Assembly (NCBI RefSeq): GCF_022965755.1
Contig: NZ_CP095187.1
Location: 2,480,001 to 2,544,000 of the forward strand
Source of the DNA: Pseudoxanthomonas sp. F37
GTDB lineage: Bacteria; Pseudomonadota; Gammaproteobacteria; Xanthomonadales; Xanthomonadaceae
Length of the DNA stretch: 64,000 nucleotides
Direction of reading: 5' to 3'
Positions 46,631-50,970 of the stretch are shown one piece after another. Position 1 is the stretch's first letter. Each line of letters opens with the position of its first letter. A program made the translations under genes and the position numbers. The notes under the pieces are model-generated. The model was not told the DNA's origin and did no database searches. It worked only from the letters and a program-made list of their open reading frames with translations.

Positions 46631-46723
46631 GGAGAGGTGTCCGAGTGGTTGAAGGAGCACGCCTGGAAAGTGTGTAAGCGTCTAAACCGCGCTTCGGGGG
46701 TTCGAATCCCCCTCTCTCCGCCA
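46631..46723 (+). tRNA. tRNA-Ser (anticodon GGA)
   Basis: 93 nt including encoded CCA. Acceptor GGAGAGG with TCTCTCC, anticodon loop CTGGAAA reading GGA, long class II variable arm, T-arm GGGGG/CCCCC around TTCGAAT. Its 3' end is the integration site of the adjacent island. Confidence 0.97.
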
Positions 46724-46724
46724 G
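46706..46724 (+). repeat. attL: 3' end of tRNA-Ser
   Basis: ATCCCCCTCTCTCCGCCAG, 19 bp identical to 50779-50797. It covers part of the T-arm, the acceptor strand and CCA. Confidence 0.88.
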
Positions 46725-46731
46725 TTTACGC

Positions 46732-46757
46732 AAACCCCTGACTCGTCAGGGGTTTTT
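46732..46757 (+). terminator. terminator after tRNA-Ser, supplied by the island
   Basis: 10-bp stem AAACCCCTGA/TCAGGGGTTT with CTCG loop, followed by TT. Lies inside the inserted DNA. Confidence 0.85.
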
Positions 46758-46779
46758 CGTTTCTGGTCCCGACCGGGTG

Positions 46780-46801
46780 CAGGACACAAATCGGGACACA
46801 T
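46780..46801 (+). repeat. left copy of 22-bp island repeat (possible integrase arm site)
   Basis: 22 bp built from two GGACACA units; 20 of 22 bases match 50705-50726 in the same orientation. Immediately upstream of the integrase remnant. Confidence 0.7.
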
Positions 46802-46807
46802 CTCCCG

Positions 46808-47179
46808 ATGCGCATTCCACATCATCTGGTTCGTTCCTCTTCAGGGCTCTGGTCGTTTCGTCAGCGGGTTCCCGCCGACCTCCAGCACCTCATTGGCCGT
46901 CGCCTGCTCAAGCGCACCCTGCGCACGAATGACCTGTCCGAGGCCCGGCTGCGCGCGCTGGTGTTGGCGTCCCGCTATGCTCAAGCCTTCTCAACGCTGA
47001 GGGATCGGCGGATGGACAAACTGGGGAAGAAAGAGGCCGATGAGCTGATCGCCAGACTGACGCAGACCGAGGGCCTCAAGGACCTCACGCTACATCGGAC
47101 ACGGGCTCCTGACGGGACGGTCAGCGAGCGCTGGCAGATCGACACGGACGAGGACCTGCGGCTTGACCGCCTGCGGTAG
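46808..47179 (+). pseudogene. tyrosine-recombinase (integrase) N-terminal remnant
   Basis: 123 aa. LVRSSSGLWSFRQRVPADLQ with HLIGRRLLKRTLRTNDLSEA is the DUF6538-type N-terminal region of tRNA-targeting phage and island integrases. The core-binding and catalytic domains (Arg-His-Arg-Tyr) are absent; the frame stops at 47179, just after an IDTDEDL segment. Full-length relatives are about 400 aa, so roughly two thirds is missing. Position beside the att site fits an island integrase. Confidence 0.8.
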
Positions 47180-47438
47180 CAACCAGCCCTCTGAAAGCGA
47201 CGCCCAGCAAGCCATTAATGCAAAGTTCGAAGGGGCGATGGGCAGCGCCGTCCGTGTGCAGGAATACCGTGACTTCGCCTTGAGCGGCTGCCGCCAATCA
47301 GAGACGGCGGACGGCGTCGTCTGCGACGTGGGCGGATCCATCGTGCTGGACATCGCCGGAACGTCCCAGGTTCGGCCGTTCACCGAGCCCGTCCGGTTCT
47401 CGAAGGCGTCGGGCACCTGGACGGCACACAGGCCCTGA
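47163..47438 (+). pseudogene. lipoprotein fragment lacking its signal peptide
   Basis: 91 aa from TTG 47163, overlapping the integrase remnant by 17 bp. It begins LTACGSNQPSESDAQQAIN, which reads as a lipobox (LTAC) whose preceding signal-peptide hydrophobic core is missing. The body has two further cysteines (SGCRQSE, GVVCDVGG) and may be an intact mature lipoprotein domain. Probably a deletion fused the integrase 5' part to this gene. Family not recognised. Confidence 0.55.
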
Positions 47439-47445
47439 TCCGCCC

Positions 47446-47757
47446 ATGACCTACTACGCCCCTACACCCATCGTTTCGGTGATGACCCCACAGGCACGTT
47501 TCACACTGTGCTTCTGCGTTGCGGTTCTTCTGACGGGGCCGTTCGGCCTCGTCATCGGCCCCGTGCTCTCACGGCTCCTCCGGAAGCGCGCGGAGCGCCT
47601 CCATCCCTTCGCTGCGGCTCAAGCCCAACAACGGAGTGCCGGCCACTTCAACATCTGCCAGATCTGGGCTATCACGGCGTGCGGCCTCATGGGGCTGGTC
47701 GGAGCGCTCGTCATGCTGCCTACGGTTCCCTTCGTGATTCTTGGCATGTTCGGCTGA
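47446..47757 (+). CDS. small hypothetical membrane protein
   Basis: 103 aa. Two hydrophobic segments (about 20-42, FTLCFCVAVLLTGPFGLVIG, and 74-101, ITACGLMGLVGALVMLPTV) separated by a basic loop. Seven bp after the lipoprotein fragment, so probably cotranscribed. No family recognised. An internal ATG at residue 13 is an alternative start. Confidence 0.6.
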   Translation: MTYYAPTPIVSVMTPQARFTLCFCVAVLLTGPFGLVIGPVLSRLLRKRAERLHPFAAAQAQQRSAGHFNICQIWAITACGLMGLVGALVMLPTVPFVILGMFG

Positions 47758-47859
47758 CCAACCGCCAGCAACTAACAGCGCCTTAGCTCAGAAATAACTA
47801 TCTGCATGTAGTCGTCCTTTAGCTTAGGCTCGTGGGCAATGAGCACAGGAGTTCCATTG

Positions 47860-48240
47860 ATGAAGAAGCGCTATTTCTCAGTCGTTCGAGTGGCGGGACT
47901 CGTGAGCCTGCTTCTGAGCACCGCTCCGTGCCTTGCTAGCCAGGCCGAGAAGGGGTCTTATGACGGTTCCCTAGAAAGCCCGGTCCTCAAGTGTTACGAG
48001 GAATATGCCAAACGCTATAGCGCGACGAATGCCGCACCCGCCGACATTGCCTCGGCTGCGTATGCACATTGCTATGACGCGCTTCTGAGCTACGCCAATA
48101 AAATCCGGGCCGACACCGCGTCAAGCCCGGCCATATTCAATGTCGAGGAGCGTGTTACGGCAGCTCGCGCCGAGCTCGAGAAGCGTGCCCACGCTGCCGC
48201 CCTTTCTCAGATACTTCGCTCTCGTTTCGATTCAAACTAA
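47860..48240 (+). CDS. hypothetical secreted protein
   Basis: 126 aa. Signal peptide MKKRYFSVVRVAGLVSLLLS ending near CLAS; mature helical part with two cysteines (LKCYEEYAKRY, YAHCYDALLSYA). AGGAG eight bases before ATG 47860 sets the start. Codon use is clearly different from the high-GC flanks, in keeping with acquired DNA. No family recognised. Convergent with the DUF6624 gene, 12 bp apart. Confidence 0.65.
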   Translation: MKKRYFSVVRVAGLVSLLLSTAPCLASQAEKGSYDGSLESPVLKCYEEYAKRYSATNAAPADIASAAYAHCYDALLSYANKIRADTASSPAIFNVEERVTAARAELEKRAHAAALSQILRSRFDSN

Positions 48241-48252
48241 GTCTTGCTACTG

Positions 48253-49392
48253 CTATTTGTCCTGATAACGTGCACGGATCAGATCGAGATACTCCTCGGA
48301 CGGACCCATCGCCATCTGCATGCGTCTGGCATCCAGATGGGCAATGTCCTCGACCGGCTTCAAGACGATCTTCCCATCCACTCGGTCTGTCTGAGTGCCA
48401 TACAGTTGCTTCTTTCCCTCGGCGAGCAGCACGCGATCGGTCAGCAACGCAAACTGCTGGCGCGAGAGTTGCCGAGTTTCCATGAGCGGCTTGGCCAGAT
48501 CCAGAGCCCTTCTCTGAAGCTCAACGTCACTCGCGTGCTGCACCAGCAAGAAAAAGGTTGACACACCGTCACGTCCGACTTGAGCCACGCCAGGGAACCC
48601 GTGTTGCTCAAGTATCTCGTGGAGACGGGAAAGGTTGTCGGCGTCAGCCCTTTCTACTGCAGCTCGGAGCTGCTCCTTCTCGGCATCGGTTTTTGCACCG
48701 ATCAGTGCGTGCCGCGTGCGCTGATCCGACTCAATCATTCTCCCCAGTTCCTGCCGAAGCTCTGCCAGCTGATACCCTGCGAACTCAACTGACAGTCGCG
48801 GGAAAGGATTGGCCTCGTCGAGAGATAGACCCTCATCCAATCTGCGCTGAACTCGCTGCAGCTGCGAACTGGCGTCCTCCAGCCCGTAAAAGTCTCGATA
48901 GAACCTCAATCCGCTTAGGCTCTTGGGCATGCTAGGAACAATCGCCTTGCCGTCGACATCTTGATGAATCACCGTCCCATACCGTTGACTCTCTCGGTTC
49001 TTAATCTGGATTTCGTCAACTAATCGCGCATAAGCGTAGGGATCTATATCAACGCTAACTTGCGGATCCATCGCGCGCAGAACGTCTTCCTGAAACAGAG
49101 GATCCAGGCCCGCATCTAGCAATAGTCGACCTATAGCATCCACGGTATCCAAACCAACACTGGCCACCGTCGGCCAACCGTATGTCCTCAACGCAAGCTT
49201 GAATTTTTCAATACTCTCAGATGACAGCGGTCGATCTTCTTTCAGAAGCTCAGCATACGCGGAAGCCTCAGCTTCATCATGACTCTTTGCCTTGGAAACC
49301 CGGTAATCCTCCGAAGCACCGAAAGCCGCTGAACAGAACAACAAAAGACCTATAGAAAAGAAGATCTGCACCGATCTACCGAACATACTCAT
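48253..49392 (-). CDS. secreted protein with two DUF6624-like repeats
   Basis: 379 aa. Signal peptide about 1-26 (IFFSIGLLLFCSAAFGA). Two similar modules, about 71-165 and 264-360. Each has a HG/YGWP-like start (YGWPTVASVG; HGFPGVAQVG), a middle LTDRVLLAEG or LVDEIQIKNR segment and a YGT motif (SQRYGT; KQLYGTQ). The second matches DUF6624, the first is a diverged copy. Function unknown. The start ATG 49392 overlaps the ATP-grasp stop (ATGA), so the two proteins are made together. Confidence 0.78.
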   Translation of the reverse strand: MSMFGRSVQIFFSIGLLLFCSAAFGASEDYRVSKAKSHDEAEASAYAELLKEDRPLSSESIEKFKLALRTYGWPTVASVGLDTVDAIGRLLLDAGLDPLFQEDVLRAMDPQVSVDIDPYAYARLVDEIQIKNRESQRYGTVIHQDVDGKAIVPSMPKSLSGLRFYRDFYGLEDASSQLQRVQRRLDEGLSLDEANPFPRLSVEFAGYQLAELRQELGRMIESDQRTRHALIGAKTDAEKEQLRAAVERADADNLSRLHEILEQHGFPGVAQVGRDGVSTFFLLVQHASDVELQRRALDLAKPLMETRQLSRQQFALLTDRVLLAEGKKQLYGTQTDRVDGKIVLKPVEDIAHLDARRMQMAMGPSEEYLDLIRARYQDK

Positions 49393-50360
49393 ACACCCGA
49401 TATCCTGTTTTCTTGCGTTGCCCACGCATTGTATTCGGCCAAACCCGGGAACCTTCCAGCATCTTCCTCTCCAGCTAGGGCGGCTGCTACATGCGAAACT
49501 ATAGGGCCGCCCCCATGAAACTCCACAAACAGAAACGCACCGCCAGGATTGAGATCAAGAAAATACCGATCCCCTTTGGCATCAATGCAGAAGTCGCTGC
49601 TCGCCATCGTTATTTCGAAGTGCTCCGCTAGCCTTTCCAATTCACGATTCATCTGCGGATCAAAAAACGACTCGAACTTGAGCGTGCCGTCGGTTTGGAA
49701 GGGCCGAAAGTCAATGCACTCTTCATGAGGACTCTCAATCTTACACGCGAAGACTTGCTTTCCTACAATCACCGCGCGAACATCCGCAACCTTGTCAATG
49801 GCCTGTTGATAGATGGCCGGACATGCAAGGATCTGAGCATCACTCATTTCTTCAAATTGATCCGAAGACAAGGTGTTGGCATATGTCATCAGTTGGGAGC
49901 CGTCCTCATGCCTCCATGTGTAAACATCCAACGGTTTGACGACGACGCAACCTTGCTTCTTGACAAACTCACGCACCTCATTGGGGTCGTTGCTGACAAG
50001 CGTTTCTGGAAACCTGATTCCCAGCCTTTTGCAAGCTTCGAGCTGCTCCAGCTTGTATTCACCACGAATAGCCGCGGGCTTTCCGTTGAGCCATCGCGTG
50101 CCACTATCCGCCATTCGCTCAAGAACGTTATCGACGTATCGGGAGCTTTCCCCGCGGATGTAGTCTCTATCAGAATCCCCGGTCCCCTCAGTGAACTTCC
50201 GAACTTGAAACACTCTTCGCAACCATGCGCCCGCGAATTTCGCAGTCCCCGCTACGCGAATCGACGTGTCTTTACCGTTCTGAAGATGAACAGAGTAGCC
50301 AGGCCGCTGAATCGCAAAGGAAGTATCCCAGAACTCAACCTCGTAGGGGAAGCTGATCAA
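49389..50360 (-). CDS. ATP-grasp ligase of the MvdD/graspetide-maturase type
   Basis: 323 aa from TTG 50360. Features of peptide-modifying ATP-grasp enzymes: RRVFQVRK, RFPETLVSNDPNEVREFV, ATP-binding Lys142 in VVVKPL, IYQQAIDKVADVRAVIVG (as in QEYVPKR-E-LRVTVVG of relatives) and the metal-binding FLDLNPGG (Asp269, Asn271). Relatives form ester or amide macrocycles on ribosomal peptides. The N-terminus appears about 30-40 residues short, without ATG or clear ribosome site, so it may be truncated. No obvious precursor with an acidic core is adjacent. Confidence 0.75.
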   Translation of the reverse strand: MISFPYEVEFWDTSFAIQRPGYSVHLQNGKDTSIRVAGTAKFAGAWLRRVFQVRKFTEGTGDSDRDYIRGESSRYVDNVLERMADSGTRWLNGKPAAIRGEYKLEQLEACKRLGIRFPETLVSNDPNEVREFVKKQGCVVVKPLDVYTWRHEDGSQLMTYANTLSSDQFEEMSDAQILACPAIYQQAIDKVADVRAVIVGKQVFACKIESPHEECIDFRPFQTDGTLKFESFFDPQMNRELERLAEHFEITMASSDFCIDAKGDRYFLDLNPGGAFLFVEFHGGGPIVSHVAAALAGEEDAGRFPGLAEYNAWATQENRISGV

Positions 50361-50614
50361 TGGGAACCGACGTGAAAATTGAAAGCTTTACTATTACCTT
50401 TGTGAGCGGCGACGGCTCTGAAGTGAACGAGGTCATCACCAAGACGCTGCCGAAGAAACTTAAGCTCAACCTGACGCCCAAAGACGAAACTTTTTCGCAG
50501 CGTTTGGCTACTACGAAAGCGCTCGACACGGCACGCAAAGCCAGAGTCTCTGGTTTTACCTCCACCGCAAAGCCAACAAGGCCTCTTTCGAGCTTTGTCT
50601 CGACAAAGAAGTGA
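50360..50614 (+). CDS. small hypothetical protein divergent from the ATP-grasp gene
   Basis: 84 aa, MGTDVKIESFTITFVSGDGS onward; lysine/threonine/serine-rich, beta-strand-like first half and basic tail (PLSSFVSTKK). AGGGGA about nine bases upstream supports ATG 50360. It starts at the very base where the ATP-grasp frame opens on the other strand, leaving no room for a divergent promoter. It could be a partner or substrate of the ligase, but its tail lacks the Asp/Glu residues usual in graspetide cores. Confidence 0.55.
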   Translation: MGTDVKIESFTITFVSGDGSEVNEVITKTLPKKLKLNLTPKDETFSQRLATTKALDTARKARVSGFTSTAKPTRPLSSFVSTKK

Positions 50615-50704
50615 GCTTTCGTCGCCGTTCCCCACGGCGAGACTCAATGAGTCCACATACACGCTAGTCAAGCTAGCGCTCGCGTGCTTGATCCGTTAAT
50701 CTTA

Positions 50705-50726
50705 CAGGACACAAAACAGGACACAT
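50705..50726 (+). repeat. right copy of 22-bp island repeat (possible integrase arm site)
   Basis: Matches 46780-46801 at 20 of 22 bases. A further inverted GTCCTGTA unit follows at 50738-50745, pairing with TACAGGAC at 50703-50710. Confidence 0.7.
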
Positions 50727-50778
50727 TCCTTGTTTGCGTCCTGTAGGAGAATCAAGGACTTAGGGTCGGGTTGACTCG

Positions 50779-50797
50779 ATCCCCCTCTCTCCGCCAG
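50779..50797 (+). repeat. attR: duplicated tRNA-Ser 3' end
   Basis: 19 bp identical to 46706-46724. Upstream bases do not continue the tRNA, so this is a boundary scar, not a second tRNA. Confidence 0.88.
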
Positions 50798-50805
50798 ATT
50801 CGAAG

Positions 50806-50825
50806 CATCCCGGCCTGCCGGGATG
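50806..50825. repeat. single REP-like hairpin
   Basis: CATCCCGGC/GCCGGGATG around CT; same type as the right-hand hairpin of the repeat near 30740. Native DNA just outside the island. Confidence 0.55.
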
Positions 50826-50831
50826 ACGGCG

Positions 50832-50858
50832 AACCGCGCTACGGCGCGGTTTCGTTTC
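50832..50858 (+). terminator. ancestral terminator of tRNA-Ser, now at the island's right flank
   Basis: Stem AACCGCGC/GCGCGGTT (50832-50839 with 50844-50851), loop TACG, then a T-rich TCGTTTC. In the ancestral order it would lie about 35 bp after the tRNA. Confidence 0.6.
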
Positions 50859-50861
50859 TAT

Positions 50862-50970
50862 GGTGGCCCCGTCGGCCCCTCGCGACGCTAGGTCGAAAAC
50901 CCCGCCAGGGCCGGAAGGCAGCAACGGTATCGATCGACGCGGGCGCCGAGGCCAGCCGGCGGGGCCACCG
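50862..50970 (+). ncRNA. ffs: signal recognition particle 4.5S RNA
   Basis: About 109 nt. Ends pair as GGTGGCCCC/GGGGCCACC; the domain IV hairpin has the conserved CCAGGGCCGGAAGGCAGCAA with GGAA tetraloop and the symmetric loop bound by Ffh. Followed by CCTTTTC, a likely termination tract. Position near tRNA-Ser and dnaX matches other gammaproteobacteria once the island is removed. The remaining 108 bp to 51078 hold nothing recognised. Confidence 0.93.

Follow-up and report, generated by a model that had tools for sequence, protein, structure and literature searches.

The window analysed here, a stretch of 64,000 nucleotides from Pseudoxanthomonas sp. F37, carries on its minus strand a gene for a graspetide-type ATP-grasp ligase (323 aa, TTG start, 49389..50360) and, downstream of it, a gene for a secreted tandem-DUF6624 protein (379 aa, 48253..49392). 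The two genes share the 4 bp of an ATGA stop/start (49389..49392, minus strand), as stated in an earlier note on this DNA, and the overlap presumably couples their translation. From the first base of the ligase gene an ORF of 84 aa diverges on the plus strand (50360..50614). The whole set lies within a small island at a tRNA-Ser gene.

The ligase reading frame is open across its 323 codons and gave as best NCBIfam matches TIGR04187 (GRASP_SAV_5884, 3.2e-44), TIGR04185 (MvdC, 3.4e-31) and TIGR04184 (MvdD, 1.8e-27). These matches agree with the graspetide-type assignment of the earlier note, though the enzyme scores far below every curated cut-off, the best value being 151.4 versus 350 bits for TIGR04187. 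Homology to RiPP-maturing ATP-grasp ligases was evident from a profile of 53 relatives (248 bits), which were taken from 63 non-redundant sequences representing 78 usable of 80 loci. Searched against the PDB, the profile of the window ligase and these relatives matched solved ATP-grasp ligases, best 5ig8 (7.9e-79), which we take to be microviridin-type enzymes. All 12 residues that are invariant in the relatives are kept in the window ligase, as are 27 of the 36 positions conserved in at least 85% of them. The D-F-R motif is present (D217-F-R219), while position 269 is occupied by Asp and not by the Glu found in 52 of the 53 relatives; the ligase of the Xylella plasmid L048 shows the same replacement. 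The AlphaFold model shows a confident fold (mean pLDDT 91). Judged by its sequence, the enzyme looks to have kept its catalytic core. In the tree it sits on a long branch that is joined with a support of 64/50, and no graspetide group could be assigned to it.

At its N-terminus, the ligase is approximately 25 residues short and the pre-ATP-grasp domain is incomplete. When all 80 relatives were compared to the profile built from the 53, 78 of them, read as stop-to-stop frames, began at profile position 10 or earlier, whereas the match of the window ligase begins at position 29. The two exceptions are L117, whose match begins at the contig end, and L167, which matches from profile position 111. 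For each of the 53 relatives, the first 31 profile positions yielded between 19.9 and 56 bits, compared to -1.4 for the window ligase, and the missing segment was not found in any frame of 50270-50900. Ahead of the TTG start, no ribosome-binding site was seen by eye. The alignments fix the register of the N-terminus only weakly. The profile favours a start at the second strand by 0.9-2.1 bits, while the AlphaFold model, based on a MAFFT alignment in a different register, presents the first 20 residues as a strand and a helix with high confidence. Whichever register is chosen, the aligned relatives have some 20-25 residues more ahead of the conserved Arg48. Since the first 20 residues were modelled as strand and helix, the missing residues may belong to the interior of the domain, and the ligase may be functional. 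As to the lack of a competent active site, which the earlier note named as a refutation, the invariant residues are retained and the predicted fold is confident, but the N-terminal domain is shortened.

The DUF6624 gene starts with the ATG at 49392, or at 49425 if a GTG is used. Its product matches Pfam PF20329 in two stretches above the cut-off (1.5e-35; 122.7 bits versus a gathering cut-off of 27) and has, by eye, a hydrophobic signal peptide but no lipobox. The description as a secreted protein with two DUF6624-like modules was therefore correct, with the restriction that the first module is degenerate. With a profile made in this analysis from 17 of the 29 loci L049-L077 and module 2 of the window protein, modules 1 and 2 scored 55 and 203 bits, respectively. 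Module 2 (about residues 211-371) retains the conserved residues of the family, including the QH, DR, YGTQ and RR positions. By contrast, module 1 (about residues 48-152) is devoid of the His, with DE in place of DR and YGTV in place of YGTQ. Four tandem relatives were aligned; their first modules are likewise without the His and the last Gln, although DR is kept in three of them. The structure predicted for the protein (alignment A3, comprising 9 of 12 DUF6624 ORFs) is weak outside module 2. Another DUF6624 gene, in which one module was found, exists in the same genome (G000:C1:50301-50786; L002, L100); it is not accompanied by a ligase and lies among chromosomal genes that look ordinary by eye.

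To determine how often ligase and DUF6624 genes occur together, 297 Xanthomonadaceae genomes (296 and the window's own) were searched at E 0.001. Ligase matches were obtained at 87 places in 50 genomes, DUF6624 matches at 91 places in 71 genomes. Leaving the window aside, a DUF6624 match was located within 3 kb of the ligase at 13 of 86 places, compared to approximately 0.1 expected by random placement. In twelve of these pairs DUF6624 lies downstream on the same strand; the thirteenth (G255) is a short fragment on the opposite strand. A second collection of 80 named loci, which has some contigs in common with the first sample, contained a DUF6624 ORF in 11 loci, ten times downstream on the ligase strand; L105 is the same opposite-strand fragment as G255. 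The ATGA overlap was present in 14 of the 20 pairs checked, the window counted, a number from which L088 (gap of 1.5 kb), L097/L105 (fragment, other strand) and L132, L146 and L148 (same contigs as L083, L080 and L081) are excluded. The repeated pairing that the earlier note proposed to look for thus exists and, as the pair recurs in other genomes, the lack of recurrence named beforehand as a refutation did not occur. On the other hand, ligase matches are missing from 45 of the 71 genomes that contain DUF6624, and hence the domain is not specific to graspetides. Beside the genes for the closest relatives of the tandem protein, L098 (49-50%) and L099 (42%), no ligase is encoded. The L098 gene (L098:6900-8300), the closest relative found, seems to be frameshifted, and the ligase-less tandem gene of L099 is abutted by an ORF (L099:5861-7297) with a weak match to the rve integrase core (2.4e-5, below the cut-off). 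Two loci contain a further, weaker DUF6624 gene behind the first (L079:5860-6357 and L081:5756-6322). Such double genes perhaps illustrate how tandem forms arise.

The island harboring the pair (46728-50778) goes back to an integrative element at tRNA-Ser(GGA) that has undergone a deletion. The tRNA gene (46631..46723, plus strand), which was detected by ARAGORN and by the Rfam tRNA model, served as integration target. Its 3′ end provides the left att repeat of 22 nt (46706..46727), which is 95% identical to the right repeat (50779..50800) located some 70 bp ahead of an SRP RNA gene. The right repeat is further supported by empty sites in congeners, which were encountered in 5 of 11 congener loci (L183, L185, L186, L187, L190). 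Three of the other congener loci possess a larger element of 16.8-17.9 kb at the tRNA-Ser (L188, extended as L203; L189, extended as L202; L193, extended as L204) with integrases of 502-507 aa; in L202, Pfam matches bear out both the integrase and a MobA/MobL relaxase. Compared to these three islands, the window element has kept both ends and lacks 13-14 kb at 47162. The deletion shortened the integrase to a fragment of 123 aa (DUF6538; 46808..47179, plus strand) and removed the signal peptide from a lipoprotein gene, which is now without its 5′ end (47163..47438, plus strand). Relatives of this gene (L195-L198) encode the full signal peptide, and DNA homology to them starts at 47162-47164. 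Since the deletion ends at 47162, it is situated away from the ligase gene, and a junction that might explain the shortening of the ligase was not seen. Between the repeats, the right half has a G+C content of about 50%, down from about 67-70%.

Alignment of the islands and the ORFs of the congeners delimited a cargo segment (47764..50704) comprising the 133-aa, DUF6624, ligase and 84-aa ORFs. This segment is absent from the three congener islands, which contain other genes there. The 133-aa protein (47839..48240, plus strand) has a signal peptide by eye, and its gene is convergent with the DUF6624 gene. It has matches in only 2 of the 297 family genomes, the window's included. A distant relative (L099:8463-8846; 38% over 52 aa, E 1e-7) is encoded beside a tandem-DUF6624 gene in another genus, and the 133-aa protein is possibly a third partner.

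What distinguishes the window from most of its counterparts is the precursor. A motif search detected leader-type precursors upstream on the same strand in 10 of 13 DUF6624-adjacent loci (12 genome loci and a Xylella plasmid), those of the Xanthomonas type and of Xylella among them, while L084, L088 and L089 gave none. In the tRNA-Ser island, a motif search revealed no leader motif, and a recognisable leader-bearing precursor, such as stands beside the ligase in a complete cluster, is thus missing. Searches of the whole genome with precursors yielded no credible candidate, though unusual ones would be missed in this way. The precursor families are diverse, and the precursor profile also missed G202, where the ligase adjoins DUF6624, so that an unusual precursor elsewhere in the genome is conceivable. 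The 'no typical precursor' of the earlier note accordingly describes the window but is not a property of the system. We infer that a precursor was once present in the window and that its absence is most likely a loss.

With a probability of roughly 0.7, we regard the pair as an orphaned remnant of a known graspetide cluster type, which arrived as cargo of an integrative mobilizable element that later collapsed. This cluster type consists of a precursor, an ATP-grasp ligase and an exported DUF6624 protein. Where it is complete, the leader-bearing precursor would receive its lactone or lactam links from the ligase, and the DUF6624 protein would be translated via stop/start coupling and then sent across the membrane. 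It may act on the exported peptide by tailoring or processing, or it may protect the producer. As a precursor gene, the usual upstream region and approximately 25 ligase residues are missing, the pathway in the window very probably yields no peptide. Expression of the DUF6624 gene, whose reading frame is open, may nevertheless continue.

An alternative that deserves consideration, even though it is rather unlikely, is that the shortened ligase still functions and acts on a precursor whose gene lies at another place in the genome, with the DUF6624 protein as exported partner. The retained catalytic residues, the confident model and the preserved ATGA coupling are compatible with this, and the precursor searches are blind to some families. 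However, a credible precursor was found neither in the genome nor in the island, the N-terminus is short in comparison to 78 of 80 relatives, and the gene combines a TTG start with the lack of a ribosome-binding site visible by eye.

The position of the pair might also indicate conflict or defence cargo, since the same right-hand slot holds a PD-T4-5 match (1.2e-71) in L204, and Old-type (L203) and PbeC/DndD-type (L202) matches were obtained elsewhere in the elements, outside that slot. PADLOC, however, did not match the window ligase or the DUF6624 protein, in L202 and L203 the four ORFs of the slot that were tested matched no Pfam or PADLOC family, and location on its own is weak evidence. 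We consider this explanation improbable. Similarly improbable is a variant in which the naturally shortened ligase and the coupled exported tandem-DUF6624 protein need no dedicated precursor beside them and serve inter-bacterial conflict, the target of the modification being a protein or peptide whose gene lies elsewhere.

The earlier note had also suggested an unusual substrate, either the 84-aa protein or the DUF6624 protein. The small gene diverging from the ligase start does exist as an ORF, but it is unsupported as a gene. Relatives were detected neither in 296 other family genomes and 37 other genus genomes nor in plasmids, phages or viral contigs, and the G+C contents of its three codon positions (0.42/0.48/0.60) do not clearly indicate a coding sequence. 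The proposed recurrence of an 84-aa family beside the ligase was therefore not observed in the family genomes. As the ORF and the ligase gene start in opposite directions at the same base, 50360, there is no room for ordinary promoters, and one start or both are presumably doubtful. That the ORF encodes the precursor or substrate is highly improbable. It is adjacent, an AGGGGA stretch precedes its ATG (by eye) and its product is rich in Thr, Ser and Lys near the end. Yet it lacks a leader motif and relatives, contains no Asp or Glu to be linked within the last 20 residues, and diverges from the ligase gene, whereas the precursors of the relatives are encoded upstream on the ligase strand. Least probable of all is that the DUF6624 protein itself is the substrate, as might be suspected from the tight gene coupling, because identically coupled relatives mostly have a separate precursor and the 45 DUF6624 genomes mentioned above manage without a ligase match. 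All in all, nothing was found that would support either of the two proposed substrates.

If the pair is the remnant of a cluster, its value lies less in the window itself than in the question to which it points, namely the role of exported DUF6624 proteins in graspetide pathways. The ATGA-coupled loci with upstream precursors mark complete sets in which this role can be tested, and the contrast between the degenerate module 1 and module 2 hints at the DUF6624 residues that matter.

The association of both families has been described before. DUF6624 is frequent in graspetide groups 18, 20, 23 and 42 (Carter et al. 2026, PMC13097080), and this published pairing speaks against the new peptide- or protein-modifying pathway envisaged in the earlier note. 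The window resembles these groups in possessing a graspetide synthetase and a co-occurring DUF6624 protein; it differs from them by its shortened ligase and by the lack of a recognisable precursor. In an earlier study (PMC8939145, 2022), 'cluster 23' extracellular proteins of graspetide loci are portrayed as exported, having a conserved His and Arg and being encoded beside ATP-grasp ligases. This cluster probably corresponds to DUF6624, but many of its members are lipoproteins, whereas in the window protein no lipobox could be seen by eye. A function for DUF6624 is not named in the literature that was found, including by a full-text search for DUF6624.

Among the individual loci, the thatisin-type (group 16) ligases of Lysobacter and Luteimonas are nearest to the window ligase (about 32-37% identity). 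Their loci are nevertheless different: THATGPNGDD precursors, whose core, to judge from the name, belongs to thatisin, are encoded upstream, several loci include an ABC transporter ORF (by eye), and a full DUF6624 gene does not adjoin, the only exception being the opposite-strand fragment of G255. In L082, L085 and L086, as in the window, a secreted tandem-DUF6624 protein (31-32% identity) is encoded behind the ligase, and its module 1 is devoid of the conserved His. In contrast to the window, these loci contain a precursor-like gene and show no gene overlap. The ligases of these loci group in a separate clade, while the placement of the window ligase is weakly supported. The Xylella taiwanensis plasmid NZ_CP087679 (L048) shares with the window the order of ligase and DUF6624 gene, the ATGA overlap and the replacement of the usual Glu by Asp in the F-L-E-x-N motif of the ligase. 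It differs from the window in that its ligase is of full length (369 aa) and preceded by a precursor-like gene, and in that only one DUF6624 module is present. Just upstream of this precursor-ligase-DUF6624 set, a weakly trypsin-like protein is encoded (L048:6111-7148; Pfam below the cut-off). Measured against these systems, the locus in the window is a pair of the published kind that falls short of a complete graspetide cluster and is most likely what remains of one.
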